Below, in pieces: positions 306 through 13,020 of a stretch of DNA of 64,000 nt (positions are counted from its first letter, which is position 1; every line of letters starts with the position of its first letter). This DNA comes from Metasolibacillus sp. (lineage in GTDB: Bacteria; Bacillota; Bacilli; Bacillales_A; Planococcaceae). The position numbers were made by a program, and so were the translations under genes. The stretch is taken from assembly GCF_025291715.1 (NCBI RefSeq), contig NZ_JAMBIZ010000014.1:1-64000 (forward strand), given 5' to 3'. The notes under the pieces are model-generated. The model saw only the letters and a list, made by a program, of their open reading frames with translations, ran no database searches and was not told where the DNA came from.

Positions 306-491
306 TTAGTTATCAATTTCTTTCCAACCCTCTTTAACTAGCAACTGACAGATAGGCGAGAAGTCAGGAATCACAGCCGTGACCTCTACGCCCTCCACAG
401 TTGTGAGGAATGTTCTTGTATTTAATTTTTCTTTTGGTTTTTTACGCTTATTACCAATATTACAAATTGGAATACCATGTTTATTGAGCAT
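306..491 (-). CDS. small hypothetical prophage protein (61 aa)
   Basis: A 61-residue ORF whose start shares one base with the stop of the ERCC4 nuclease gene, which suggests translational coupling. It is basic in the first half (KRKKPKEK near residues 15-22) and has no domain I recognise. It carries one copy of the dispersed prophage motif CTGTGGAGGGC (390-400), read here as the codons for T-V-E-G. No function is proposed. Gene status rests on the tight overlap and direction. Confidence 0.55.
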   Translation of the reverse strand: MLNKHGIPICNIGNKRKKPKEKLNTRTFLTTVEGVEVTAVIPDFSPICQLLVKEGWKEIDN

Positions 492-1039
492 TAGAACACC
501 CCATTTTTTAGGTAATACCTTGCTTGATATAAAAACCTGTGTAAAATAACATGTCCCATCATGTCCTTTTCGACTGGACGAATTTCGAAATTATATTTCG
601 CTTGCAGGCTATCTAATCGCCCTCGTAAAGCCTTTGGGTCGTATCGACTACGGTAATTCCCTTGTGCTAAATTACGGTCAAAATGCGGGTCCTCCACAAA
701 GATAACGAATTTGCTACCTTGTGAGCGAATCAACTCATTGATAAATGCTTGTTGAGTATCTTTTTGCAAGTTACCGCATATTTCGTCAACGGAATTTTTA
801 CGCTCAACGTAAGAATTGAAATATAAATCACGTGTTATCCCTAGTTTTTGCGTGTCCTCATTGGACGGAATCATAAAGCTATAATCACCTGTATCAAGTT
901 TTTGCAATTTCATCGGAATATCCTTTTGCTTGAAATATTCGATGATGTGCATAGATGATTTTTCCCTAGTGTCCATGATGATGGTTAAGTGTTTTAACAG
1001 TGCGTCAATTTCTTTGTCAGCAAAGCGGTAATGAATCAT
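491..1039 (-). CDS. ERCC4/XPF-type nuclease domain protein
   Basis: A 182-residue protein with the ERCC4 nuclease signature: D-T-R-E-K near residues 23-27, G-D-Y at 51-53 and E-R-K at 79-81, followed by a conserved aspartate near 85. In XPF/Mus81-type enzymes these acidic and lysine residues bind the metal at the active site and cut branched or flap DNA. Phage versions of this size are single-domain and probably resolve branched replication or recombination intermediates. It overlaps YopX by four bases (ATGA type) and the next small gene by one base. The family call is strong; the exact DNA substrate is inferred. Confidence 0.8.
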   Translation of the reverse strand: MIHYRFADKEIDALLKHLTIIMDTREKSSMHIIEYFKQKDIPMKLQKLDTGDYSFMIPSNEDTQKLGITRDLYFNSYVERKNSVDEICGNLQKDTQQAFINELIRSQGSKFVIFVEDPHFDRNLAQGNYRSRYDPKALRGRLDSLQAKYNFEIRPVEKDMMGHVILHRFLYQARYYLKNGVF

Positions 1040-1440
1040 TTTGTATCACCTAGCAATTCAGGATTTTCGTAAATATTGCCGATGACTTCAAAAACATACT
1101 TACGCTCTACTATTTCGTAAAAAGCGTACTCATCCGTTCCCCAACACCATTCATCCATTGTGACTACTTGCAGTTCATTAGCGTAGCCCTCTTTATGTTC
1201 GAATTTCAAGATATCCCCCTCATAGATTTTCTCGCCGTTCTTGTCCTTTAAGCCTGTGTATTGCATATATTGCAGATGTTCTAACTTTTCAGCATAAAAC
1301 CCCTCAACCGAATCATCAGGAATTAATTTATCTGCTACAATACTGTTACTATCAAAATAAAAATGAATTAATTCTTCTTCGCCTACCCAATACATTTTAT
1401 TTTCAACATTGCACCAAGCACGAAATTTAATTTCCCTCAC
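1036..1440 (-). CDS. YopX family phage protein
   Basis: A 134-residue YopX-type protein. It has the family's typical opening (REIKFRAW), the central Q-Y-T-G-L-K-D-K-N-G-E-K-I-Y-E-G-D-I segment near residues 65-85, and the closing V-I-G-N-I-Y-E-N-P-E. The start is GTG at 1440, chosen because an AGGGGG ribosome site lies eight bases upstream. YopX proteins are common in early regions of Gram-positive phages; their role is not established. It overlaps the nuclease gene by four bases. Confidence 0.85.
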   Translation of the reverse strand: MREIKFRAWCNVENKMYWVGEEELIHFYFDSNSIVADKLIPDDSVEGFYAEKLEHLQYMQYTGLKDKNGEKIYEGDILKFEHKEGYANELQVVTMDEWCWGTDEYAFYEIVERKYVFEVIGNIYENPELLGDTK

Positions 1441-1489
1441 TATAAAAACCCCCTAACATATCATTTTTACCTATCTAGCGCTTTCTGTA

Positions 1490-1542
1490 AGGCGTTTTAA
1501 TATCAAAGTAGTATTATTTATCACCTTTAATCTAAAACGCCT
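1490..1542. other. inverted repeat between hypothetical gene and YopX
   Basis: Perfect 10-bp arms, AGGCGTTTTA (1490-1499) and TAAAACGCCT (1533-1542), flank a 33-base loop. It lies in the only noticeable gap between leftward early genes. It could be a weak intra-operon processing or termination hairpin, or a protein site. No run of T follows in the direction of transcription, so I do not call it a terminator. Confidence 0.4.
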
Positions 1543-1557
1543 AAAAACACGCTTAAA

Positions 1558-1983
1558 TCACTTATTTTGACGTGCATGTAAAATAGCACGTTCATAGATT
1601 TGTTTTTTGAGCTGTTCCGTTTCGGCATTTTCATATTTTCGCCAATCCTCGTATAGCTCTCCCCAACCGTTCACAGCTAACTTAGCTTGATAGTCCATAA
1701 ATAGATTTAAAGCTACTTCATCACTGTTTAAAAAATTGCCAATAGATTCATTACGTTGCCAACCAGCCAAAGCAACTATCATTTTCCATGCTGTCATGTC
1801 TGTTGCGTTCATGCCCTCCACAGATTTGAGGTAGGCATCTATTTCATCAAAAATAGGCTCGGCTGCTTTTAAAACTTCTGACGGTATTTTTTGATGGTTT
1901 TTTAATTCGAGTTGACCGTCACTTTCATCACGTTCAATCACGCCACCAAATTTCCAAATTTGAGCTAAAATATATAAAACCAC
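1558..1983 (-). CDS. hypothetical prophage protein (141 aa), primase-linked
   Basis: The 141-residue product starts at GTG 1983, preceded by AAGGAAG about nine bases upstream. The first 60 residues (G-G-V-I-E-R-D-E-S-D-G-Q-L-E-L, then I-P-S-E-V-L-K-A-A) loosely resemble small docking-type domains that sit beside replication proteins in integrative elements. The rest is helical and rich in Trp and Glu. It lies just past the iteron-rich gap behind the primase-helicase, so a replication role is plausible but unproven. It holds one copy of the dispersed motif (1813-1823, codons for S-V-E-G). Confidence 0.6.
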   Translation of the reverse strand: MVLYILAQIWKFGGVIERDESDGQLELKNHQKIPSEVLKAAEPIFDEIDAYLKSVEGMNATDMTAWKMIVALAGWQRNESIGNFLNSDEVALNLFMDYQAKLAVNGWGELYEDWRKYENAETEQLKKQIYERAILHARQNK

Positions 1984-2008
1984 CGCTTTCCACTTCCTTA
2001 CAATTTAC

Positions 2009-2335
2009 GGGTTACTTAATTTTTTGAATATGTCGTTTTTATGCCCCTTAATTAACCCGGGTTACTTTTCCGTAACCCACTTTACACTTACAGCCACAAG
2101 ACTTTAAGCGTTTCGGGTTAAAAAGGTTACTCGGAAATCGCATTACGCCCTTATAGTAGTATCTTTATATATATTTTATTTTTTTATTTTATATATATTT
2201 AAGTAACCAAAGTAACAAAATAACTACAAAGTATTGATATTACTGATTTTCTGCGGGTTACTTAAAGAATTTAAAGGGTTACTTAAACTAGCTTAAAGTT
2301 ACTTTTCGCTGTTTTTGATGATTCTTCCGTAACCC
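2009..2335. repeat. iteron cluster, candidate prophage replication origin
   Basis: GGGTTAC or its complement recurs at 2009, 2059, 2072 (inverted), 2255, 2276 and 2329 (inverted), with shorter relatives at 2115, 2125, 2201, 2211 and 2298. Three copies extend to GGGTTACTTAA (2009, 2255, 2276). A TAACCCGGGTTA palindrome sits at 2053-2064. Between the two groups lies an almost pure A/T stretch (about 2161-2200), the usual look of a DNA-unwinding element. The cluster spans the gap behind the primase-helicase and enters its last codons. The repeats are seen; origin function is inferred from position and layout. Confidence 0.6.
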
Positions 2336-4637
2336 ATTTAGACGCTCTTTCCTGTAAAGTTATTCCTAAAAAGAAATTTTTGTTTTTTGCACCACGTTCT
2401 TTTTTGAATCCTTTAGTTTCCAACATTCGGTAAAAACTTCTGTTTCCAACAACACGTTCCTTCGCCGTGTAACAAAAACTGTCATACGTTTTATAAAGCT
2501 CTTGCGCTTCAATTTTGATTGATTCATTTTCCTTATCCACATAACAACATTCGACAAGGAAAGGGTCTAATATATCCATATCCTCTTTGTATAGACCTGT
2601 TGCTTTTGTAACAACCAACGGTTCTTTTAATCCGTCCTTCTGCCACTTTAAACAGCCCTCAATCGCCCAGTTGAGTATTCCGCTCATTTCAAGCGATAAT
2701 TTTTCGGGTAGCTTTTTATCGCGTTTGTGTGCTGGCAAGTTTAAATCAAATGGAATCAATTTAACTCGGCGCCATATCCCTTCATCTAAGCCACCAATAA
2801 TCGGCTTATGATTAGTGGTAAAGAATACTTTAAATTCTGGAATGTACTCGAAATACTCTTGACGCAAGAAGCGAGCTAGGACAGGCTCACCACCTGTAAT
2901 TTGCTTTACAAATGATTCGGAAAGCTTTTCCCCTTCCTCTGATTCAATCGCAGATACAAAGCGTGCTCCTACTAATCTAGCAATATCATTGTTAGCGCCT
3001 GTTTCTTTTTTCTTGATAAACGTATCTGATTTAGCTTGCTTACCATATTCGCCTACGAGGTCCTTAATAGTGTTGATAAAAGTAGATTTACCATTTGAGC
3101 CGCCGCCAACCAAAAACATCATGATTTGTTCGCTGATATCGCCTGTTAGCGAGTAACCAATTAAACGTTGCATATATTCTTGTAAGTCTTTGTCACCTAA
3201 AAATATTTGGTCTAAAAATGCTAACCAATTCGGACATTTTGCATTTTCGTCATAATAGATATTTGTTATTTTTGTAAGTTTCAACTCTCGGTCATGTGGC
3301 TGTAATTTTCCTGTTTTTAAATCCACAACCCCATTTTCGACATTTAGCAAATATTTATGTCGGTCAAATTCTTCGCGGTCCGCCGGCACTAAAACACGTA
3401 AATCTTTAATAGCAGCTTCGCGCACATTATGTTTTTCGCAATGGCGCGCCCATTTTTGCTCGTTTTCATCTTCTGATTTACCTAATTTACGCACTACCTT
3501 TGCGACTAATCGCTGTAATTTTCCTTTAGTATCAATCTCCCAATGCTTGCCGTTCCAAATGTACCACCCGACCGTATTTACATGGCGGATAACATGACCA
3601 TATTCGTATGCAATTCGCTCGGCGTTACCTAAATCAGTTAGCTTAAATTTTTTAGCTGGCTTGTCTACTTCCTCTACATCATCACTGTGGACGGCAAATG
3701 AAAATTCACTGTCGTTTTGATGGTCTAACACTGTTGTAGTGGTAGAAGAAATAGCTGTAGCAATCGTTCTTTCGCCGTATGTTTCCCCTGTATCGGAAAA
3801 GTGAATTCTGTCCCATTTATCACGCATAAGACTTGATTCACGAAACATTGAATCCATTCTTGAAGCGCTTTTTCCAGTCCAAAAAGCCAAATGGTTACAT
3901 AGTGCCATATCACTAGATGAATGGTCATCGTTTATTAAATTTCCGTTGTACAATGACCGTATTTCATCGCCGCTTTTCGAACGGAACATTCTTTCCCAAA
4001 GTGCTTCGTTTGACAGCTTAATTTCATCTTTTTCGAACTCTGCTAAATTCACACGACCTTGTACGTCCGAATCGTCAAAATACTTTTCGAAAATCTCTGC
4101 CAACTCGTCCGTTCGGTCATAAATTTCGTTTGAATTTTCACGATTACCAGTCATCGTAAAGTAACGGCCATATTGGTAAATTTCTAAGCCATGCTTTGTA
4201 CTTTTACGTCCAGTTCCCACTACAGACTGTGGAAGGCTACCCTTGATGATTATGTGAATGCCTGTACCTGATACGCTAAACTCTGTATAACTGTCCAACG
4301 CGTTAATGACCTCTTGTGCAAAATCATTAATAATTGGGTTTACTTTGTCTTTATCATCACTCGCATACGTCACACATTTATCAATATCAATGCCGATGTA
4401 GTTGTCTTGTCGGCTAAATACAAAGCCTATGCCGTCAGCGTCCGTTTCTGTATAAAACTTCGCCGCTGTTGCAAATGTAGACCATGTGCGGCGATCATTG
4501 GAACGAGCTTCATTTCCATCAACTTGATATGGTATTTTTGTATAGCGCCCGCCTTTTTTCTCCGCCTTCCACAATATCCATTGGGGCAGCATTCGTAATT
4601 CCGATGGTATTTCATTAAAATTAATTGGTGTTTTCAC
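2283..4637 (-). CDS. phage/plasmid primase-helicase (D5/P4 type)
   Basis: A 784-residue replication protein with two parts. The N-terminal 200 residues look like a primase-polymerase domain, with the metal-binding G-I-D-I-D-K-C at 82-88. The C-terminal half is an SF3/D5 helicase: Walker A G-G-G-S-N-G-K-S at 511-518, an acidic Walker B-like region near 565-575, and F-F-T-T-N-H-K-P-I near 608-616 as sensor motif. Such proteins prime and unwind DNA at the phage origin. The GTG start at 4637 follows GAAGGTGAG. The stop lies inside the iteron cluster. Two copies of the dispersed motif fall inside the gene (3685, 4228), in different frames. Confidence 0.9.
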   Translation of the reverse strand: MKTPINFNEIPSELRMLPQWILWKAEKKGGRYTKIPYQVDGNEARSNDRRTWSTFATAAKFYTETDADGIGFVFSRQDNYIGIDIDKCVTYASDDKDKVNPIINDFAQEVINALDSYTEFSVSGTGIHIIIKGSLPQSVVGTGRKSTKHGLEIYQYGRYFTMTGNRENSNEIYDRTDELAEIFEKYFDDSDVQGRVNLAEFEKDEIKLSNEALWERMFRSKSGDEIRSLYNGNLINDDHSSSDMALCNHLAFWTGKSASRMDSMFRESSLMRDKWDRIHFSDTGETYGERTIATAISSTTTTVLDHQNDSEFSFAVHSDDVEEVDKPAKKFKLTDLGNAERIAYEYGHVIRHVNTVGWYIWNGKHWEIDTKGKLQRLVAKVVRKLGKSEDENEQKWARHCEKHNVREAAIKDLRVLVPADREEFDRHKYLLNVENGVVDLKTGKLQPHDRELKLTKITNIYYDENAKCPNWLAFLDQIFLGDKDLQEYMQRLIGYSLTGDISEQIMMFLVGGGSNGKSTFINTIKDLVGEYGKQAKSDTFIKKKETGANNDIARLVGARFVSAIESEEGEKLSESFVKQITGGEPVLARFLRQEYFEYIPEFKVFFTTNHKPIIGGLDEGIWRRVKLIPFDLNLPAHKRDKKLPEKLSLEMSGILNWAIEGCLKWQKDGLKEPLVVTKATGLYKEDMDILDPFLVECCYVDKENESIKIEAQELYKTYDSFCYTAKERVVGNRSFYRMLETKGFKKERGAKNKNFFLGITLQERASKWVTEESSKTAKSNFKLV

Positions 4638-4647
4638 TTTCTCACCT

Positions 4648-4995
4648 TCATTCGTTGATGCCTTTGATTTTTATACCTAGTGTATCTAATGTATATACAA
4701 TCGCATTTCCGTATGCTGTATGCGCTCGTCTGTCATACGGGTCATTCGTTTCTTGCCAAGTTCGTTGACGTTGATAAGTTGCTAACAATTTTTCTTCCGG
4801 CGTTTCTTCGATTTCGTAACCATTTAGTAACAATGAAACAAAAGCTTCTGTCGAAAGTTCTTTTAAACATCGCAAATGACTAGAATGCCAATTTTCGCTT
4901 AAATGCACTCGCAACGAACTTTCAAACTTATAATTTTCTTTTACATATTCAATCGCTTTCGCAACCTCACGACTAACCTTCACTTTTTCATTCAT
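4648..4995 (-). CDS. hypothetical prophage protein (115 aa)
   Basis: I chose the ATG at 4995 because a GGTGGGG ribosome site sits seven bases upstream; it overlaps the end of the preceding gene by eight bases. The product is helical and soluble, with no membrane segment. It carries E-E-T-P-E-E-K-L-L-A-T-Y-Q-R-Q in the middle and Y-D-R-R-A-H-T-A-Y-G-N-A near the end, a pattern seen in unassigned phage proteins next to primase genes. No domain is recognised. It lies ten bases before the primase-helicase start, so the two are probably co-translated. Confidence 0.65.
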   Translation of the reverse strand: MNEKVKVSREVAKAIEYVKENYKFESSLRVHLSENWHSSHLRCLKELSTEAFVSLLLNGYEIEETPEEKLLATYQRQRTWQETNDPYDRRAHTAYGNAIVYTLDTLGIKIKGINE

Positions 4996-5356
4996 TTGAT
5001 TCCCCACCTGCCATAGATATGATTTCTAAAATGCTGTCAATTACACTTTCTTCTACATAGCTTTCCTTCGCATCTAAACAGACTTTCCGAATATCTCCAA
5101 GCACCTTACATAGTTGCTTATTTTCTGCTAGTAAAGAGCTAAGATAATTAGTACCTGTTTTTATTTTTAACACTTGCAAATAAACCAATAAATCAATGAT
5201 TTCCTCACTTGCATGGTCCAGCCATTCGGCTGTTGATAGCTCACTCGGCCGCACTGTTCGACCATATTTTTCAATACCTTTTTCAGTTTGATTAATCAAT
5301 AATTCTTGCACTTGACTAAGCACATGATTGCTATTAATTTCGCTTTGAATATCCAC
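4988..5356 (-). CDS. MazG-like helical phage protein
   Basis: A 122-residue protein whose first half, K-Y-G-R-T-V then E-W-L-D-H-A-S-E-E-I-I-D-L-L-V-Y-L near residues 30-60, resembles phage relatives of all-helical NTP pyrophosphatases (MazG/dUTPase-like fold), where an EExxD pattern binds magnesium. Such enzymes trim the nucleotide pool. The second half is variable and also helical. It overlaps its upstream neighbour by one base. The fold is suggested only by motif; catalytic activity is not established. Confidence 0.5.
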   Translation of the reverse strand: MDIQSEINSNHVLSQVQELLINQTEKGIEKYGRTVRPSELSTAEWLDHASEEIIDLLVYLQVLKIKTGTNYLSSLLAENKQLCKVLGDIRKVCLDAKESYVEESVIDSILEIISMAGGESNE

Positions 5357-5559
5357 TATATTTTCCCTCCCAATACCTTCATATGATTACTTTTAAAAAA
5401 CTGAAAAACGTTTGTACTGATTTTATACATGCGTTTAATATCCTTGTCGCTCAATCCGAAATTGGATAATTCCAAATAAGTTTTAAACGTCAATTCATTC
5501 GGAAATTGCGCCTTAATTTTTTGTAATTTTTCGTTGCTATATGCATCGTTTTTAGCCAT
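5356..5559 (-). CDS. small prophage protein with HTH-like segment (67 aa)
   Basis: A 67-residue basic protein in the operon between the DUF669 gene and the MazG-like gene. Residues 35-58 (L-S-D-K-D-I-K-R-M-Y-K-I-S-T-N-V-F-Q) could form a helix-turn-helix, as in small phage proteins tentatively called DNA-binding. The ATG at 5559 is clear of the upstream gene but sits behind the hairpin at 5596-5620. Function unknown. Confidence 0.55.
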   Translation of the reverse strand: MAKNDAYSNEKLQKIKAQFPNELTFKTYLELSNFGLSDKDIKRMYKISTNVFQFFKSNHMKVLGGKI

Positions 5560-5595
5560 TTTCAGCCCTCCATAACCGAATTTGGGTATAAGAAA

Positions 5596-5620
5596 AGAGA
5601 GCCCCGAAAAAGAGCCCTCT
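5596..5620 (-). terminator. hairpin inside early operon, weak terminator or processing site
   Basis: On the leftward strand AGAGGGCTC pairs with GGGCTCTCT (nine pairs, two G-U), followed by TTTTCTT. It sits directly after the DUF669 stop and before the next early gene. It could lower expression of the distal replication genes relative to the recombination genes. The structure is visible; termination efficiency is not known. Confidence 0.45.
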
Positions 5621-5628
5621 ATTTAGTT

Positions 5629-6096
5629 TTAGAATGGTAACGCATCATCGCCGACTGTAATTGGCGCCCCTGCCTGTTGTGGTGGATTTACTTTCGATAC
5701 GTCATAATATTTTGCTTTAGCAAAAATTCGTTCTTGACCGTCTTTCGTATTTTTTTCGTGTTTCACATTGATTTCTAAATATTTCCCAATCAATTGATTA
5801 GCCATGTCTTGCGGTGAAGTGAATGGGTGTCCGTGTGGGAACCCACAAGCAGCAATTAACGAGTTTACGATTTTAACTGATACTTCATGCTCAAATGTGA
5901 ACGTATTATATAAAATTTTAGCGCCTTGATGTGGTTGGTTAACATCGCTTCGAATTTCAAAGTCTACGGAAAGCTTGTCCTTTCCAGCTTGCGTTTTACC
6001 AGGTTCAGCATTTACAATACTCGCTTCGTATTTCCCTTCCGCTACTAATTCAAAGCTACTTGATACGTTATTTACATCTAATTTAAAGAATGACAT
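5629..6096 (-). CDS. DUF669 single-strand DNA-binding-like protein
   Basis: A 155-residue DUF669 protein. It opens F-F-K-L-D-V-N-N-V-S, has the family's central F-E-I-R-S-D and K-I-L-Y-N-T-F segments, and ends in D-D-A-L-P-F. That last hexapeptide copies the acidic C-terminal tip by which single-strand-binding proteins recruit partners, which supports an SSB or recombination-accessory role. The start overlaps the ATPase stop by one base (ATGA-like coupling). Pairing of DUF669 with a RecA-like ATPase is typical of siphovirus recombination cassettes. Family strong; role inferred. Confidence 0.85.
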   Translation of the reverse strand: MSFFKLDVNNVSSSFELVAEGKYEASIVNAEPGKTQAGKDKLSVDFEIRSDVNQPHQGAKILYNTFTFEHEVSVKIVNSLIAACGFPHGHPFTSPQDMANQLIGKYLEINVKHEKNTKDGQERIFAKAKYYDVSKVNPPQQAGAPITVGDDALPF

Positions 6097-6815
6097 TATT
6101 TATTTTCCTCCTCTGTGGATGGCACTACATCGCCAATTGTAAAAATTTCATTTTGCAAACAAAATTCACGATTGTCTAATTGATTTTTAGCAAACGTGCC
6201 ATCTGATTTACTTAATATAAAGCCACGTACTTTTGTTTGTGGATTGCGTACTAATCGTCCAACGATAGGGATAATGCCCATGATGTGATTAACTACTTTT
6301 TCGCGAATGTCGGGCAAAAATTGATTGTACAGCTGTCCACTTTCAAGCGTAATTTGTCTTGTTGTTTCCCAAGCTGTAAATATCACATTAACCCCAAGCC
6401 CCTTGAAGGCTTCGACAATGCCGATTAAATGATTGTCAAAAATACCATAGTCTTTTAGTTCAGGCTGACCACTTTTAGTGTTTTTTGCCTTTTCCATCAG
6501 CCACAATTTTTGATAGTGTGATAGATTATCAATTACGATATTTTCATAGTTTGCAATATTTTTTTTGGCATAAACATAAAACTCTTTAATGCTCGCTTCT
6601 GGGTTGTCTGTATCAATCTTTGCAATATCAATATTTTCTTTACCAGCTAAAACACGGCTAGTATGGTCAATATCCAACAACAATGTTTTACCCTCTAAAT
6701 ATTGCATTGTAGATGTTTTTCCCCCGCCTGGTTCTGCGTATAGTAGTTGGCAAAAATTTTCTTCTTTTTTCATTTCGCTAGCGCTTGTAATTTGCAAGCC
6801 TTCCACACTCCTCAT
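6096..6815 (-). CDS. RecA-like phage ATPase (Sak4-type)
   Basis: A 239-residue nucleotide-binding protein with Walker A A-E-P-G-G-G-K-T at 27-34, an L-L-L-D-I-D strand near 45-50 and Walker B N-I-V-I-D-N-L near 91-97. Size and motifs match Sak4-like single-domain RecA homologues used for single-strand annealing during phage recombination and replication. The next gene encodes a DUF669 SSB-like protein, the usual partner. The dispersed motif is present at 6113-6123, near the 3' end, here in a frame that reads P-S-T. The ATG at 6815 follows AGGAGTGTGGAAG. Confidence 0.8.
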   Translation of the reverse strand: MRSVEGLQITSASEMKKEENFCQLLYAEPGGGKTSTMQYLEGKTLLLDIDHTSRVLAGKENIDIAKIDTDNPEASIKEFYVYAKKNIANYENIVIDNLSHYQKLWLMEKAKNTKSGQPELKDYGIFDNHLIGIVEAFKGLGVNVIFTAWETTRQITLESGQLYNQFLPDIREKVVNHIMGIIPIVGRLVRNPQTKVRGFILSKSDGTFAKNQLDNREFCLQNEIFTIGDVVPSTEEENK

Positions 6816-6830
6816 TTATTTCTTTAGCCA

Positions 6831-7280
6831 TTATTTAGCCGCCTTTTCATAGTTTTCGGGAAAGTTTAAAATTGCCTTATCGCCTAACAGCTCATAAGCT
6901 TTTTTGTCGTATGCTTCAGCTGCTGCTGATTCGTGTAAGTAAGACCCACACCAATGCTTTTTGCCATTAACCTGTATCATGGCATAGTAATGATTTCCCT
7001 TTTTCGCAACACCTCTATATTGTGAAGTAGCGCCACGTTGTTTTTTAACTTGATTGATAACTTTTAAAGGCACTTCTTTAATTACTTCTTTTTCGACTAC
7101 CTTTTCCACTTCTACAATCTGTGGAGGGCTAGTAATAATTTCGATTTCACCTTTTAACAGCGATGTGCGATTGAGGAATATTCCCTTTACTGTTTTGCCG
7201 TCCACAGATTTATTTATCTCAGCAATAATATTGTCCAATGACTTAAAACGACTAACTGGAATTGTAATTACTTCGTTCAT
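6831..7280 (-). CDS. AP2-domain DNA-binding prophage protein
   Basis: The start is ATG 7280, six codons inside the open frame, because AGGAGGT lies just before it. The C-terminal 60 residues form an AP2 domain: S-Q-Y-R-G-V, then H-Y-Y-A-M-I-Q-V-N-G-K-K-H-W, then A-A-E-A-Y-D-K-K-A-Y and A-I-L-N-F. This three-strand plus helix fold reads DNA and is found in phage proteins and homing endonucleases. No HNH motif is seen, so this is a binder rather than a nuclease. A hydrophilic valine/glutamate-rich linker precedes it. The gene holds two copies of the dispersed 11-bp motif, facing each other (7119 rightward, 7197 leftward), which makes this protein a candidate reader of that motif. Confidence 0.8.
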   Translation of the reverse strand: MNEVITIPVSRFKSLDNIIAEINKSVDGKTVKGIFLNRTSLLKGEIEIITSPPQIVEVEKVVEKEVIKEVPLKVINQVKKQRGATSQYRGVAKKGNHYYAMIQVNGKKHWCGSYLHESAAAEAYDKKAYELLGDKAILNFPENYEKAAK

Positions 7281-7291
7281 TGGGTTACCTC

Positions 7292-7477
7292 CTACCATTT
7301 GAATTTATTAAACTCTTTACGAGTTTTTGTACCAATGACAACAAATAATAAAATTTGAACAATCACGATTGCACCTATGATGTATGCAGGAATGAACACC
7401 AACCACCATGACCAATCAATGACACTAAATGCTTTTAATAAAATAAACACGATTAATAGAATACCTAGTAAGCCCAT
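7292..7477 (-). CDS. small two-helix membrane protein of prophage
   Basis: Sixty-one residues with two hydrophobic segments (about 3-18 and 24-50) and a short basic tail (K-T-R-K-E-F-N-K-F-K-W). It lies between the AP2 and Gp157 genes with short gaps. Small membrane proteins like this are common among phage early genes and may affect host physiology or superinfection, but nothing in the sequence says which. The ATG follows AGGAGGTAAATA. Confidence 0.6.
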   Translation of the reverse strand: MGLLGILLIVFILLKAFSVIDWSWWLVFIPAYIIGAIVIVQILLFVVIGTKTRKEFNKFKW

Positions 7478-7487
7478 TATTTACCTC

Positions 7488-7961
7488 CTATCGAATACTT
7501 AATGATTGATTTTCTACTAAGCTAGCACCTGCAATTGATTCACCATTTTTAAGTGCTTTTGATAGCTCTGTTTTACTGATTTTTGTTTCAGTTTGAATAA
7601 ATTGCTGTGGAATAAGCGATTCATCAACAATTTGCACCGATGTTGATTTACGCAAGCTGAATGTAAATTTATCCGTTTTTAAGCGATTGCCTTCCACAGT
7701 TAGCAATGCTTCATACATACTGTCTTTCATGCGCTTGACGTTGCTCTCCATTGCCTTACGGCGCTCAGCCAAACGCTTTCCCTCAGCCTTCAAACCTTCA
7801 ATGTCAGATTCGACATTTTTAATCACCATTGCATAGCCTTCCAGCTTGTCCGCTGTCGCAAGTTCAATTGATTCGAGTGTATCTTCTAAGCCTTCGTTAC
7901 CGTCCTCAATCATGCGTTGGATTTGCAATAACGCTCCTTGTAATTCGTAGAGTGTTGCCAT
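7488..7961 (-). CDS. Gp157-family phage protein
   Basis: A 157-residue siphovirus Gp157-type protein. The first 100 residues are a long coiled coil (L-Y-E-L-Q-G-A-L-L-Q-I-Q, then K-N-V-E-S-D-I-E-G-L-K-A-E-G-K-R-L-A). A short beta region follows (F-S-L-R-K-S-T-S-V-Q-I-V) and then I-P-Q-Q-F-I. The family has been linked to phage-resistance phenotypes in Streptococcus thermophilus but its biochemical role is unknown. It overlaps the upstream gene by one base. One dispersed motif copy (7689-7699) reads T-V-E-G. Confidence 0.85.
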   Translation of the reverse strand: MATLYELQGALLQIQRMIEDGNEGLEDTLESIELATADKLEGYAMVIKNVESDIEGLKAEGKRLAERRKAMESNVKRMKDSMYEALLTVEGNRLKTDKFTFSLRKSTSVQIVDESLIPQQFIQTETKISKTELSKALKNGESIAGASLVENQSLSIR

Positions 7962-8839
7962 TATTCAACCACCTCGCTTAAATATTGAGCGTCTGTGTCG
8001 TTGATGATTTTATAATGGCTCGTATACGTACCATTATCATGAGTAGGATATCCATTTGTATCAATTCCACTAACAGCTAAGAAACGTCCAGCTGGCTTAT
8101 TATCTAAAAAACAAACTTCAATCAATTGACCTACCGCCACTATAGGCTGTACCGCCTGTTCAAATTCGCTTACATCTAAATCTAATGCTCGTCCTAATGC
8201 GATGGCTTTGCCAATCCACTCATTAAATACGTCAGTAGGTGTACAACGAGCGCGCCCGACATGTCGTACCTTTTTCTGCACTGTCTTGCCACATGATACC
8301 CAACGAATTAAAGCTGTTACTTTATTGCCCTTTACAATAAATTCAGTTTCATAATAGTATTGTTGACAAGTCTTGTTTCCCTCTCTATGAGATTCATCGC
8401 CTGCACGTACAGCTTGATATTTTTTAACAAACTCTTTAGCCTTTTTAATCATTTCGGCACGCTGCTTATTTGCTGATTTTTCGACAACTGCTACCTTTTC
8501 AACAAGCTGTGCTTCAAGTAATTCAATTCTCTTTAACGCACCTGTTAACTCGCCTCTTAAGCCCTCGCTAAATTTGTCTAAACGCTTAACTTCATTTTCT
8601 AATGCTGTGATACGTTGATTTTTAGTTATTTTTGATTCGACTAACTCTAAATCACAAGGGAGAGCATATCCATAAGCTCTATTTCGTTCGAGTTTAATAC
8701 GTTTTCTTGTATCTCTACCAAAAGTATCTGATGTATATCCAACAACTGTGTAGGTTTGTCCGTTTTCAAAACCAAGTAACGGATAAACATTACCACCATT
8801 CAAAAGCCTAACCTTTTCTCCGATTTTAAACTTTGTCAT
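7961..8839 (-). CDS. large hypothetical early protein with coiled coil (292 aa)
   Basis: Three regions are visible. Residues 1-70 form a small beta domain (K-I-G-E-K-V-R-L-L-N-G-G opening, as in SH3/KOW-like modules). Residues 72-140 are a coiled coil. Residues 145-230 hold G-N-K-V-T-A-L-I-R, a conserved C-G-K segment, R-A-R-C-T-P-T-D-V-F-N and a G-K-A-I-A-L-G-R helix typical of early siphovirus proteins that follow Gp157 genes. Catalytic residues are not recognised. It overlaps the neighbouring genes on both sides by one to four bases. Confidence 0.65.
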   Translation of the reverse strand: MTKFKIGEKVRLLNGGNVYPLLGFENGQTYTVVGYTSDTFGRDTRKRIKLERNRAYGYALPCDLELVESKITKNQRITALENEVKRLDKFSEGLRGELTGALKRIELLEAQLVEKVAVVEKSANKQRAEMIKKAKEFVKKYQAVRAGDESHREGNKTCQQYYYETEFIVKGNKVTALIRWVSCGKTVQKKVRHVGRARCTPTDVFNEWIGKAIALGRALDLDVSEFEQAVQPIVAVGQLIEVCFLDNKPAGRFLAVSGIDTNGYPTHDNGTYTSHYKIINDTDAQYLSEVVE

Positions 8840-8937
8840 TTAAGATATTCTCCTTTGTGTGCTACAATAGCACTGTAGTATTTTGTTTTGCGCTCGTTAA
8901 CTACTGCAATAGTTAGCGAGTTTTTATTCATCCTCAT
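8836..8937 (-). CDS. micro-ORF (33 aa), translationally coupled
   Basis: A short frame overlapping the end of the previous small gene and the start of the 292-residue gene by four bases. The likely start is ATG 8937; ATG 8943 is possible and 8931 less so. The basic product (V-N-E-R-K-T-K-Y-Y-S in the middle) matches nothing I know. It is supported only by its place in the overlapping chain. Confidence 0.4.
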   Translation of the reverse strand: MRMNKNSLTIAVVNERKTKYYSAIVAHKGEYLK

Positions 8938-9058
8938 GGTCATCCCATTCAGATTTGTCGTGTTCGTTATCCACTTCATTTCTGTGGATGGCTCTCCATT
9001 GTTCCCTTGTATAGCCTGTACGGTTAACATGAGTTATGTCAGGGTGCTCAATATCCAT
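8924..9058 (-). CDS. acidic micro-protein of prophage (44 aa)
   Basis: ATG 9058 overlaps the last codons of the upstream gene. The product is hydrophilic and ends in a very acidic tail (D-N-E-H-D-K-S-E-W-D-D-H-E-D-E). Small acidic phage proteins sometimes act as DNA mimics, but nothing here proves it. One dispersed motif (8982-8992) lies inside, read as A-I-H. Confidence 0.5.
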   Translation of the reverse strand: MDIEHPDITHVNRTGYTREQWRAIHRNEVDNEHDKSEWDDHEDE

Positions 9059-9290
9059 CGTTATCAACTCCCAATGCCTTAGTAGCGGCTTCAATACATC
9101 TTTCATGAGCCTGCTCTGCTGTACATAGTGGATACGGTTCTAAAGTCCACCCATCAGAATTCGCTATTTGTTCAAGTGCATCACGTAATCGTTTGTTTTC
9201 TATACGCAAGTTATCACGTTGAAACATCATTCGTGCTGCAAATCTACCCCAAAATCCTTTATTTGCAGGAACTAATTTGTAACGTTTCAT
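9048..9290 (-). CDS. hypothetical prophage protein (80 aa)
   Basis: Eighty residues. The first part is basic with aromatic residues (M-K-R-Y-K-L-V-P-A-N-K-G-F-W-G-R-F). A helical stretch follows (N-L-R-I-E-N-K-R-L-R-D-A-L-E-Q-I-A) with coiled-coil character, as in small phage proteins of unknown role. It sits in the early chain with a 10-bp overlap to the next gene. Confidence 0.55.
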   Translation of the reverse strand: MKRYKLVPANKGFWGRFAARMMFQRDNLRIENKRLRDALEQIANSDGWTLEPYPLCTAEQAHERCIEAATKALGVDNDGY

Positions 9291-9301
9291 TATTTACAAC
9301 C

Positions 9302-9436
9302 TCACTTTGTACGATTATGACGTGACTTTTGCGGACGATTAAATGTTTTGTGATACCACGTTTTAAACTTACGGTTCAACTCGTCTGCTGATAATTTCGC
9401 ATCATGCTTACGGTAATTTTTTAATTCGTTCATCAT
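9302..9436 (-). CDS. basic micro-protein of prophage (44 aa)
   Basis: ATG-ATG start at 9436/9433 behind GGTGAG. The product is strongly basic (K-T-W-Y-H-K-T-F-N-R-P-Q-K-S-R-H-N-R-T-K at the end), suggesting nucleic-acid contact. It overlaps the preceding gene by four bases. The family is not recognised. Confidence 0.5.
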   Translation of the reverse strand: MMNELKNYRKHDAKLSADELNRKFKTWYHKTFNRPQKSRHNRTK

Positions 9437-9591
9437 TTACTCTCACCACCTTTCAAGCGAGCTTTAACAAGCTTTTTAAGCAAGTCTGAATACATAACAT
9501 CATCTAAGGACCGTCCTTCGATTTCATGAATACCAAGCTTGTTTAATTGCTTGATTACGTTATTACGCTTCAACTTCTGCATCATTTCCAT
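9433..9591 (-). CDS. small prophage protein (52 aa)
   Basis: The open frame reaches further upstream, but ATG 9591 is the best start: AAGGATA lies seven bases before it and it overlaps the preceding gene by 29 bases. The product is basic and helical, with K-L-K-R-N-N-V-I-K-Q-L-N-K-L-G-I near the start. Function unknown. Confidence 0.5.
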   Translation of the reverse strand: MEMMQKLKRNNVIKQLNKLGIHEIEGRSLDDVMYSDLLKKLVKARLKGGESK

Positions 9592-10033
9592 AAGCGTAAT
9601 ATCCTTCCGTATAGGCTTTGACTTCCTCGATAGCATCGAGCAATCCCATTAAACGTTGCTGTTTAAACTTGTAATCTCGTTGCTTGTCTACTAGATTTAA
9701 TGCAAACGGTTCTTCTGCATTGCCTTCCATTGCATCTATTGCTAGTTCAATTAATTCTTGATTTTCTCGCTCATGCATTTCATCAAGATGTGCAATCAAT
9801 TTTTCTCGTTCACTAGCAATCTTTTCTTTAACTCCTATGAATCTAAGAGCTTTTGAAAAGTCTAATTTTAGATTTTCTTCTATATAGGAACTTGTAAGTT
9901 TTTCATTACGGTAAGTAATGCAATTTTGACTTTTGTCGAAAATAGTTACTGAATCTGCTACTCCATCACGAAATGTTAAACTAAACACCTCGTATTCCTT
10001 GCCATCCACAGTTAGTGTAGGTTTTAATACCAT
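9563..10033 (-). CDS. hypothetical prophage protein (156 aa)
   Basis: A clear gene with AAAGGAGG before ATG 10033. The N-terminal half is a small beta region (L-T-V-D-G-K-E-Y-E-V-F-S-L-T-F), the C-terminal half charged helices with coiled-coil character. The motif copy at 10001-10011 gives T-V-D-G at residues 8-11. No domain is recognised; many siphoviruses have a protein of this size at this point. Confidence 0.6.
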   Translation of the reverse strand: MVLKPTLTVDGKEYEVFSLTFRDGVADSVTIFDKSQNCITYRNEKLTSSYIEENLKLDFSKALRFIGVKEKIASEREKLIAHLDEMHERENQELIELAIDAMEGNAEEPFALNLVDKQRDYKFKQQRLMGLLDAIEEVKAYTEGYYAYGNDAEVEA

Positions 10034-10125
10034 TTGATAACTTCCTCCTTTGTCGCATTAATTGCGTTACTTACGCTTGCCAGTCGCTTGCGTAATGGAT
10101 ACGATAACCATCGTTTCAAACTCAT
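10024..10125 (-). CDS. basic micro-ORF (33 aa), coupled
   Basis: ATG 10125 overlaps the stop of the upstream micro-ORF (ATGA) and follows AAAGGTGG. The frame ends inside the start of the 156-residue gene, and its own 3' end contains that gene's ribosome site (AAAGGAGG). It may be a coupling leader as much as a protein. The product is basic (P-L-R-K-R-L near the middle). Confidence 0.4.
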   Translation of the reverse strand: MSLKRWLSYPLRKRLASVSNAINATKEEVIKWY

Positions 10126-10202
10126 TGTTTAGCCACCTTTCTTAACGCCGTTTGCTTGTCCTCCACAGTCATTTGTAACCATTGCTTGTTTGTTGTATTC
10201 AT
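10122..10202 (-). CDS. micro-ORF (26 aa) with strong ribosome site
   Basis: ATG 10202 overlaps the stop of the DUF771 gene and is preceded by a near-perfect GGAGGT. The product (M-N-T-T-N-K-Q-W-L-Q then T-V-E-D-K-Q) is small and polar. A variant of the dispersed motif, CTGTGGAGGAC, occupies 10158-10168. The ribosome site and overlap argue that it is translated; function unknown. Confidence 0.45.
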   Translation of the reverse strand: MNTTNKQWLQMTVEDKQTALRKVAKQ

Positions 10203-10513
10203 TTTGTACCTCCGTATATAAGATGAAAATTATCATTCAAAAATTGCGCCATTTCATTTGCTTTAAACGCCCATTTTTCTCCTTGTACATTTGGATAATG
10301 AACTATATCTTTCAATTGTTCTTTGAATTTTGGTACATACAATAAATTTGATTTAAGCCACAATTGACCTCTACCTGTACGTTCTTCTAAATCATCCATT
10401 GTCCACGCTCGCCCTAATAGTTGTTCTTTTTGCATTTGTTCATACTCTATTTTTTCGACAAGTACAAGGTGTTCAGGAATACTAACAGTTAAATTTACTT
10501 GTAAAGCCTGCAT
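10199..10513 (-). CDS. DUF771-family phage protein
   Basis: A 104-residue early protein resembling the DUF771 family found immediately after Cro-like genes in Gram-positive phages. Features include I-P-E-H-L-V-L-V near residues 13-20, G-R-A-W-T-M-D-D-L-E-E-R-T-G-R near 34-48 as a probable helix-turn-helix, and W-L-K-S-N-L. The family is thought to bind DNA, perhaps as an accessory regulator. It is the first gene after the Cro-like gene and may read from its own start region containing the inverted repeat at 10579-10599. Confidence 0.65.
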   Translation of the reverse strand: MQALQVNLTVSIPEHLVLVEKIEYEQMQKEQLLGRAWTMDDLEERTGRGQLWLKSNLLYVPKFKEQLKDIVHYPNVQGEKWAFKANEMAQFLNDNFHLIYGGTK

Positions 10514-10578
10514 GCAATTTCACCTCTCTATTTATTCATTAACGTTGCTACCGTTATATAAGCTATAAGTCCGAATGT

Positions 10579-10599
10579 ATACCGTATTTAGCTCGGTAT
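10579..10599. promoter_or_regulatory. inverted repeat upstream of DUF771 gene
   Basis: ATACCG (10579-10584) and CGGTAT (10594-10599) form a symmetric site with a nine-base centre, between the Cro-like gene and the DUF771 gene. It differs from the AACG-N6-CGTT operators of the main switch, so a second regulator, perhaps the DUF771 protein, may use it. Confidence 0.4.
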
Positions 10600-10618
10600 C
10601 ACAGCGCTTTGAAAATTA

Positions 10619-10840
10619 TTAAACTGCCATATTAGCAACTTCCGAAAATAAATAATCCATAGATAAATTAGGAAAGAAAATATTTTTTATTGCAGTAGCT
10701 TCATCTAAGGTGAACGGGTATTTACCGTTCAATTTGTCCGAAACTGTAGCAACACGAACGCCTATTTTTTCTGCAATGTCTTTACGCTGAATTCCTTTTC
10801 TTGCCAGTTCGGCTTCTAAGTTCGGGAATTTTTTATTCAT
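10619..10840 (-). CDS. Cro-like XRE-family regulator
   Basis: A 73-residue single-domain HTH protein: K-G-I-Q-R-K-D-I-A-E-K-I-G-V-R-V-A-T-V-S-D-K-L-N-G-K is a textbook XRE helix-turn-helix, followed by the P-F-T-L-D-E-A helix. It is divergent from the S24 repressor, which marks it as the Cro-equivalent lytic regulator. Its promoter (10887-10915) overlaps an operator. The ATG follows GGAAGGAGTG. Confidence 0.85.
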   Translation of the reverse strand: MNKKFPNLEAELARKGIQRKDIAEKIGVRVATVSDKLNGKYPFTLDEATAIKNIFFPNLSMDYLFSEVANMAV

Positions 10841-10860
10841 ACGATTTCACTCCTTCCGAA

Positions 10861-10988
10861 AACGCAATTGCGTTGTGTTAATACGAATATTAAACGTAAT
10901 TGAGTTTTAAGTCAATGCAAAAAAACGTTTTTTCGTTAAAATTAAACGAAAATGAGTAAAAGGACCTTGTATAATTACGAAATTTCGT
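10861..10988. promoter_or_regulatory. lysogeny-switch operators
   Basis: A set of related sites of the form AACG-N6-CGTT: AACGCAATTGCGTT (10861-10874, perfect palindrome), AACGTAATTGAGTT (10893-10906), AACGTTTTTTCGTT (10924-10937), a half-degenerate AACGAAAATGAGTA (10945-10958) and a shorter ACGAAATTTCGT (10977-10988). Two of them fill the spacers of the two divergent promoters. They are the expected targets of the repressor and Cro-like protein. Sequence symmetry is seen; binding is inferred. Confidence 0.75.
10887..10915 (-). promoter_or_regulatory. leftward early promoter (PR-like)
   Basis: On the leftward strand TTGACT, a 17-base spacer, then TAATAT, 47 bases from the Cro-like start codon. 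The operator at 10893-10906 lies inside the spacer, so repressor binding would block it. It probably drives the whole leftward early operon. Confidence 0.75.
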
Positions 10989-10995
10989 ATATAAT
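10967..10995 (+). promoter_or_regulatory. repressor promoter (PRM-like)
   Basis: TTGTAT, 17-base spacer, TATAAT, reading toward the repressor. The spacer contains ACGAAATTTCGT (10977-10988), suggesting autoregulation. The repressor ribosome site AAGGAGGTGA follows at 11004-11013. Confidence 0.75.
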
Positions 10996-11019
10996 ATTAG
11001 TATAAGGAGGTGAAAGTAA

Positions 11020-11679
11020 TTGAGCAGAACAGAATATATAAAAAATATGATTGATGAAAAGTGGGATAGTAGAACAAAGTTTGCAAAGCATATTGGTATA
11101 CCGCCAACAACATTGCAATCAATATTAGAACGTGGAGTTGGTAAAGCTTCTATAGATAACGTAATGAAGATATGTAGGGGTCTTGGAATTACGACAGACA
11201 GTTTACAATTTATATCTGATGAAATGGCCATAAAAGAAAATGGAGTTGTGTATGATATAAGTAAACGTAATTATTACCGATACATTCCTTTTTCGGTTTC
11301 AGCAGGCTTACCAATCGAAATTGATAGTATAACAAACTACGATACAATCGCTATAGCTGATGAATTATTAGGCAAGTATGCAGGTAACAAAAATGTATAC
11401 TTCATGCGAGTAAATGGTGACAGCATGAATAATTTATTCCCGCATAATTCATTAATAGCCGTTCTTCCTCAAACTGTGGAGGACATAAAAGACGGTGACA
11501 TTGTAGTGTACAGTCATAACTACGACTATTCGGTCAAAACTTTTTATCGAGATGATAACGAGTTGATTTTTAAATCAAATTCGAACAATCCAAAGTTTCA
11601 CGATTATGTATTTAAAAACACTGATGAAAACTTATGCATACACGGAAAAGTAATTTTGTACATCGTCAATGTTGATTAA
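11020..11679 (+). CDS. CI-like repressor with S24 self-cleavage domain
   Basis: A 219-residue repressor starting at TTG 11020 behind a perfect AAGGAGGTGA. Residues 1-65 form an XRE helix-turn-helix. The C-terminal part is a LexA/CI-type S24 peptidase: cleavage bond Ala95-Gly96 (V-S-A-G-L), nucleophile Ser135 in N-G-D-S-M and general-base Lys173 in S-V-K-T. This predicts RecA-stimulated self-cleavage and SOS induction of the prophage. It sits between the operator region and the integrase, in the lysogenic orientation. The gene carries one dispersed motif variant (11474-11484). Confidence 0.9.
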   Translation: MSRTEYIKNMIDEKWDSRTKFAKHIGIPPTTLQSILERGVGKASIDNVMKICRGLGITTDSLQFISDEMAIKENGVVYDISKRNYYRYIPFSVSAGLPIEIDSITNYDTIAIADELLGKYAGNKNVYFMRVNGDSMNNLFPHNSLIAVLPQTVEDIKDGDIVVYSHNYDYSVKTFYRDDNELIFKSNSNNPKFHDYVFKNTDENLCIHGKVILYIVNVD

Positions 11680-12981: not shown

Positions 12982-13020
12982 GTCCTACGAGGGGTTAATT
13001 CATTCCCTCCGAGGGCGCCA
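12982..13020 (+). other. tRNA-3'-end-like sequence, candidate attachment site
   Basis: The stretch ends ATTCCCTCCGAGGGCGCCA at 13020, resembling the T-loop/acceptor end of a tRNA including terminal CCA. The preceding part is not a normal T-arm: the GAGGG/CCCTC stem has an 11-base loop. No full tRNA is present. Immediately after it the sequence becomes host-like. In related Bacillales a tRNA-Arg gene lies near clpP, next to crh, so I infer that the prophage used that tRNA end and the intact gene lies left of the window. GTCCTACGAGGG and CCCTCCGAGGGC also form a 12-position hairpin with two mismatches. Confidence 0.5.

Follow-up and report, generated by a model that had tools for sequence, protein, structure and literature searches.

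A dispersed, origin-polarised DNA word in Bacillales temperate phages as a probable start site of the phage AEP primase-helicase

The word TGTGGANGRC, which is repeated at about one copy per kb through a prophage of Metasolibacillus sp., is probably the start (template-recognition) site of the phage's own AEP primase-helicase, with its copies forming an array for lagging-strand priming. This assignment draws on sequence comparison and on analogy with characterised primases. That the motif has some function in replication is very probable, and the decisive observation for function is its strand polarity around the putative replication origin.

The window, by which we mean the whole stretch of 64,000 nucleotides that was analysed, contains part of the prophage and, after the integrase gene, the genes crh, whiA and yvcK. 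The prophage continues beyond the window on a second contig, C18, which carries the late genes (terminase, portal, tail and lysis) and, past them, clpP. A 16-bp sequence found in the window is repeated on C18, and since this repeat fits att sites, the two parts belong to one prophage of approximately 38.9 kb plus an unsequenced gap, with the repeats as its likely att sites. The features discussed below are as follows, with window coordinates.

390..399, minus strand: site TGTGGAGGGC, right of the origin in phage direction (lagging template)
689..698, minus strand: site TGTGGAGGAC, right of the origin
1813..1822, minus strand: site TGTGGAGGGC, right of the origin
2010..2304: iterons GGTTACTT/AAGTAACC, putative replication origin, directly downstream of the primase gene
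2283..4637, minus strand: AEP primase (PrimPol) with NrS-1-like helix-bundle domain and D5_N helicase, 784 aa, identified from Pfam and PDB matches; proposed reader of the motif, from co-occurrence
3686..3695, plus strand: site TGTGGACGGC, left of the origin, opposite strand
4228..4237, plus strand: site TGTGGAAGGC, left of the origin; kept in most relatives at about -1.95 kb
4564..4573, minus strand: site TGTGGAAGGC
6114..6123, plus strand: site TGTGGATGGC
6798..6807, minus strand: site TGTGGAAGGC
7120..7129, plus strand: site TGTGGAGGGC
7197..7206, minus strand: site TGTGGACGGC
7689..7698, minus strand: site TGTGGAAGGC
8983..8992, plus strand: site TGTGGATGGC
10001..10010, minus strand: site TGTGGATGGC
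10158..10167, minus strand: site TGTGGAGGAC, outside the listed ORFs
11475..11484, plus strand: site TGTGGAGGAC
13002..13017: ATTCCCTCCGAGGGCG, a 16-bp likely att site with a second copy, reverse-complemented as the contigs are oriented, at C18:25891-25906

The motif was confirmed, and it proved larger than a sequence-only reading of the window had described. All 12 copies listed there are present, ten as exact CTGTGGANGGC and two as CTGTGGAGGAC, six per strand, and their positions were correct save for the copy placed at 4228, which should be at 4227. A further core copy, TGTGGAGGAC at 689, had been overlooked, as had TTGTGGAAGGC at 4564 and GTGTGGAAGGC at 6798. The statement that all copies lie in coding DNA holds for 14 of the 15 core sites, the one at 10158 being outside the listed ORFs. 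The copies do occupy more than one reading frame and both strands, so a shared peptide is indeed no explanation, and the reported lack of exact copies elsewhere in the window was borne out, with 0 core copies in the 51-kb host part. With one mismatch allowed, the window holds 17 copies against 1.4 expected (maximum of 4 in 100 shuffles). Exact CTGTGGANGGC occurs 30 times in the 3.83-Mb genome, with 25 copies in the prophage and 5 in the remaining 3.79 Mb, and the reversed control word has 0 copies genome-wide. Ten of the prophage copies lie in the window and fifteen in C18:1-25.3 kb; the motif is therefore present in the rest of the prophage, and it is specific to the prophage rather than enriched in the host chromosome. 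The core TGTGGANGRC is found 44 times in the approximately 38.9 kb of the prophage, where 0.3 copies are expected.

A family-wide scan found the word clustered inside the prophages of many genomes, and TGTGGANGGC is the top over-represented 9-10-letter word in nearly all prophages with such clusters. Among 32 low-density phages carrying the primase, TTGTGGANGA ranks first, which makes TGTGGANGR the shared core; Planococcaceae-type phages lengthen it to GGC. Base tables show the site as [C/T]T-GTGG-ANGRC, with GTGG preceded by a pyrimidine-T; written out as CTGTGGAAGGC, it has a 5' YT, a GTGG and an NGGC part. The DnaA box, which was considered and set aside, has TGTGGA in common with the motif and differs in NGRC. 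Against 200 permuted words as a control, the motif is conserved in aligned relatives at 35% versus 5% where identity is 60-70%, and at 56% versus 11% where it is 75-80%. The sites are thus kept far above the control, with some site turnover also seen among aligned relatives, and this indicates that selection acts on the DNA and not on one peptide. The earlier proposal of a phage-wide protein site stands to that extent, as a site selected at the DNA level; the reader it named, an AP2 protein, does not.

The region 2010-2304 is a putative replication origin because of its iterons. Iteron clusters with phage-specific words also lie directly 3' of the primase gene in A2, PSA, CL2 and phiSP119-3, which have more distant primases. 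The iterons and the motif are not the same site, as the iteron word GGTTACTT differs and TGTGGANGRC is dispersed; the motif was likewise rejected as the replication-origin iteron of the primase-helicase, since it does not form a tandem cluster downstream of the primase gene. For the analysis of polarity, 19 phages were oriented early to late, with zero at the primase stop and iteron origin. From 0 to +8 kb, to the right of the origin, core sites number 65 on the plus strand and 1 on the minus strand; these collapse to 25 non-homologous clusters, of which 24 are plus. Base composition by itself predicts 79% plus for this stretch (P=4e-6). From -2 to 0 kb the ratio is 3:14 plus to minus against 81% plus expected (P=2e-8), the sites there lying within the conserved primase gene so that few are independent. 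In the remaining left arm it is 59:45, about 1:1, though the early genes there share one direction, and farther from the origin copies occur on both strands. GTGG, TGTGG and TGTGGA rank first for strand shift among all 4-, 5- and 6-mers. Near the origin the plus sites are spaced by 1.58 kb on average, with a CV of 0.37 versus 0.77 for random placement; partial homology between the phages means that the counts behind spacing and polarity are not wholly independent. The polarity was discovered by exploration and was then repeated in further loci, taken from viral and genome contigs with this primase: TGTGGANGR stands at 129:12 on the right versus 77:47 on the left in 32 dereplicated low-density phages, mostly new, and at 85:1 versus 87:61 in 17 other dereplicated loci, partly shared with the first set.

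On both sides of the putative origin, itself placed by its iterons, the sites lie on the strand that serves as the lagging template. Copies on one strand beside the origin would be expected if the lagging template there is always the same strand, and copies on both strands farther out if forks may arrive from either side and meet at variable places. Silencing, segregation, packaging and anti-host nuclease signals, all suggested by the sequence-only reading, would give no reason for the polarity to reverse at a replication origin. An unlikely alternative that does deal in polarity is a Chi-like or KOPS-like site, read on double-stranded DNA by an enzyme that moves along it, whether a helicase-nuclease or a DNA pump (AddAB or FtsK of the host, or an enzyme of the phage). 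The motif has the same orientation relative to the origin as E. coli Chi and KOPS, and the early modules of several members contain Sak4-like and Gam-like recombination genes (Pfam AAA_24 and Sipho_Gp157; in related phages the annotations of such genes read Sak4-like and Mu Gam-like). However, the few exact copies in the host chromosome are unlike host Chi or KOPS and led us to reject a chromosomal Chi-like or DUS-like word, neither a phage AddAB nor a phage FtsK gene could be recognised in the window prophage, and the word follows the primase and has a known AEP start word as its core.

The constant companion of the motif is the early module with the AEP primase-helicase. The 784-aa protein has Pfam matches to D5_N and NrS1-1_pol-like_HBD and PDB matches to NrS-1 PrimPol and another primase-helicase (E 1e-52 to 1e-36), the NrS-1 structures matching over the AEP and helix-bundle domains (E 1e-37). 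Relatives with this primase at approximately 67% identity or more carry TGTGGANGR, the core is enriched in every sampled phage with this primase, and within the main genus (g8) copy numbers are higher in genomes that have the primase (Mann-Whitney P=7e-5). Primase identity among the compared motif phages is 71-89% (46% in G095), against 30-60% for most of the neighbouring proteins. It counts against the primase reading that phi105 and A9Y have a helix bundle that is 70-72% identical (AEP 48%), yet no 10-mer, whereas G095, whose more distant primase is at 46%/54% identity, has a variant of the motif. Whether position 9 is G or A did not sort cleanly by primase identity. Replication modules without this primase have the motif at background level, and in phage SDFMU_Pfc, where a DnaB-type module replaces the primase module, there are 0 sites in the early 19 kb and 19 in the late half.

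The motif is thus present with the primase in all sampled phages and gone from replaced early regions, yet there are exceptions that weigh against the primase reading. G163 lacks this primase and has 9 TGTGGANGGC copies, although its replication genes (24-31 kb, DnaB/DnaD type) contain no core site, and the late modules of phage Pfc and of prophages G040a and G124 carry sites without the primase. For G040a we attribute the sites to recent exchange, as it is 83-88% identical to G040b in the same genome. No clear site decay was seen in primase-free phages, which for Pfc leaves the sites without explanation, and primase-free prophages retain copies near the HTH_36 and lysis end. A second, still less probable alternative is that another early-module product reads the word, likeliest the ERCC4-type nuclease (491-1039), which could cut or resolve replication intermediates near the sites. 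Its gene is near that of the primase and is also found in G163. Against this, it is only 44-68% conserved among motif phages, it occurs in phi105, which is without the motif and for which reason we rejected it as the reader, the replication genes of G163 are free of the core site, and ERCC4-type nucleases are structure-specific. Slightly less probable again is that a host replication protein reads the word instead of the phage primase. In its favour, phages of Planococcaceae hosts show the GGC extension most strongly, and Bacillaceae phages carrying the same primase show it less; against it, genome-wide enrichment is missing from other prophage regions of this host genus, and no sites occur in the early half of phage Pfc.

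Several DNA-binding proteins were considered as readers and rejected. AP2, the candidate of the sequence-only reading, has homologues in only 7 of 261 family genomes; most motif-rich phages are without it, so the motif is not an AP2 target site, and two of the 7 genomes, G144 and G060, have no motif at the AP2 locus. The HTH_36 protein at the lysis end is found in many prophages nearly without the motif, and the zinc-HTH protein of the late operon is in about a dozen phages and missing from at least seven others (iterated profile searches with it drifted to unrelated HTH proteins, and those results were discarded). The repressor (CI) does not track the motif, the window CI having few relatives among motif phages. 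That AP2, the repressor or some other DNA-binding protein occupies the word in the prophage state, making it a stoperator-like or silencing site, is accordingly the most improbable of the alternatives: the word is dispersed, asymmetric and phage-specific like the stoperators of mycobacteriophage L5, but the proteins above do not track it, and its sites are inside genes and switch strand at the origin.

For the primase reading, the start rules of NrS-1 and pRN1, taken with a [C/T]T-GTGG word on the lagging template, lead us to propose that the sites are Okazaki start sites of the phage primase; primase binding to the site and bidirectional replication are both inferred. As a fork unwinds phage DNA, the helix-bundle domain would recognise GTGG(A) on the single-stranded lagging template, with the 3' NGRC contributing specificity, and the primer would start opposite the pyrimidine-T immediately 5' of GTGG. 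Evenly spaced copies would then set where Okazaki fragments begin. On balance, we favour the broader view that lagging-strand priming is hard-wired in a large group of temperate Bacillales phages by a genome-wide, origin-polarised array of 9-10-nt AEP-primase start sites at roughly Okazaki spacing, which would constrain coding sequence everywhere, keep the primase nearly fixed and limit module exchange. If so, the Okazaki-fragment starts of these phages could be read from sequence, priming by AEP/PrimPol enzymes in vivo would become directly testable, and primase specificity and origins could be predicted from genomes alone. It would also give a plain reason for a selected word at hundreds of unrelated coding positions, and would tie phage mosaicism to replisome compatibility.

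Among known systems, Chi and KOPS have polarity from the origin, and DUS/USS occur as inverted pairs used as terminators. All are short asymmetric words dispersed in coding DNA, like the word described here, but they are enriched in host chromosomes, whereas the present word is found in phages only and goes with a primase gene. T7 gp4 offers a parallel, since its start sites for the lagging strand are likewise scattered over a phage genome and consist of a core and a 3' flank; the sites are (G/T)2GTC, and the 3' flank helps choose approximately 26 active ones in 37 kb (PMC12839067). It differs in having an unrelated primase fold (DnaG/TOPRIM type) and in that its trinucleotide occurs 504 times on the lagging strand, the sites being picked by binding and not as one enriched word. 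The primase of pRN1 (ORF904) requires GTG, which its helix bundle binds on the template, and places its first two primer bases across from the two template bases 5' of this triplet (PMC8076596), as we predict here for YT; there, however, three bases suffice, and the replicon is an archaeal plasmid. NrS-1 PrimPol, a homologous AEP and helix-bundle protein, recognises GTGG/GTGA and begins its primer at the adjoining 5' base (PMC8718748), so that both the GTGG core of its recognition sites (GTGG/GTGA, TTTGGTTA) and a primer start immediately 5' of the core resemble what we propose for the phage word. In the NrS-1 genome the 8-nt site occurs just twice (PMC7102993), in contrast to the 9-10-nt site here, which is enriched genome-wide, polar and evenly spaced. 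Known AEP sites, at 3-8 nt, are shorter than this word, which counts against the primase reading. The phages combine an encoded AEP primase and helix bundle, a GTG/GTGG with a usable 5' start, and placement on the lagging template. We found no description of such an array in the open literature, which does not prove its absence elsewhere. Start sites of AEP enzymes and scattered priming sites in phages both have precedents; as far as we found, what would be new is a long, polar and evenly spaced array of this kind across the genome.

A variant of the motif, CTGTGGANRG, is found in 41 copies (0.7 expected) at loci L087-L090 of the related genome G095, where it occurs together with a diverged primase whose AEP and helix-bundle domains (HBD) have 46% and 54% identity, respectively. 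Bacillus phage SDFMU_Pfc (OQ884029, L139) carries 19 core sites (TGTGGANGRC) in its late half, which show no clear decay, and none in its early half with the DnaB-type replication genes; this contrast between the two halves is a visible module boundary.

Four further features were noted in the window and on C18, the second contig, which continues the prophage into its late genes:
Window 13002-13017 and C18:25891-25906: 16-bp repeat ATTCCCTCCGAGGGCG, one copy at each place, reverse complement in contig orientation
L022:4826-5698 (C18:24826-25698): gene for an HTH_36 / phrog_1835 protein, attachment end
L021:1181-1789: member of a family of small zinc-finger-like + HTH proteins, opening the late operon
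Window 6831-7298: AP2 protein, preceded by a coiled-coil-like stretch

The repeat is likely the att core of a prophage sitting between crh and clpP, and Staphylococcus phage phiSP119-3 (L210) also has whiA and clpP as flanks. The HTH_36 / phrog_1835 gene lies at the attachment end in many prophages and contains several motif copies within its coding region, two of which are kept even in phages without the primase. The zinc-finger-like + HTH family is present in about a dozen motif-rich phages, no clear member was found among the motif-poor phages checked, and the window phage has a longer version with apparently three HTH units. The AP2 protein retrieved no Pfam match at E 0.01, and in PHROG it matches HNH endonucleases over their C-terminal region only.

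Immediately ahead of the lysis genes, two motif copies facing each other build the stem of a hairpin (L022:327-353; C18:20327-20353) with a predicted folding energy of -17.3 kcal/mol (z -5.5) and a T-run on its 3' side. This arrangement, which recurs at the equivalent position in about 10 related phages, resembles an intrinsic terminator.
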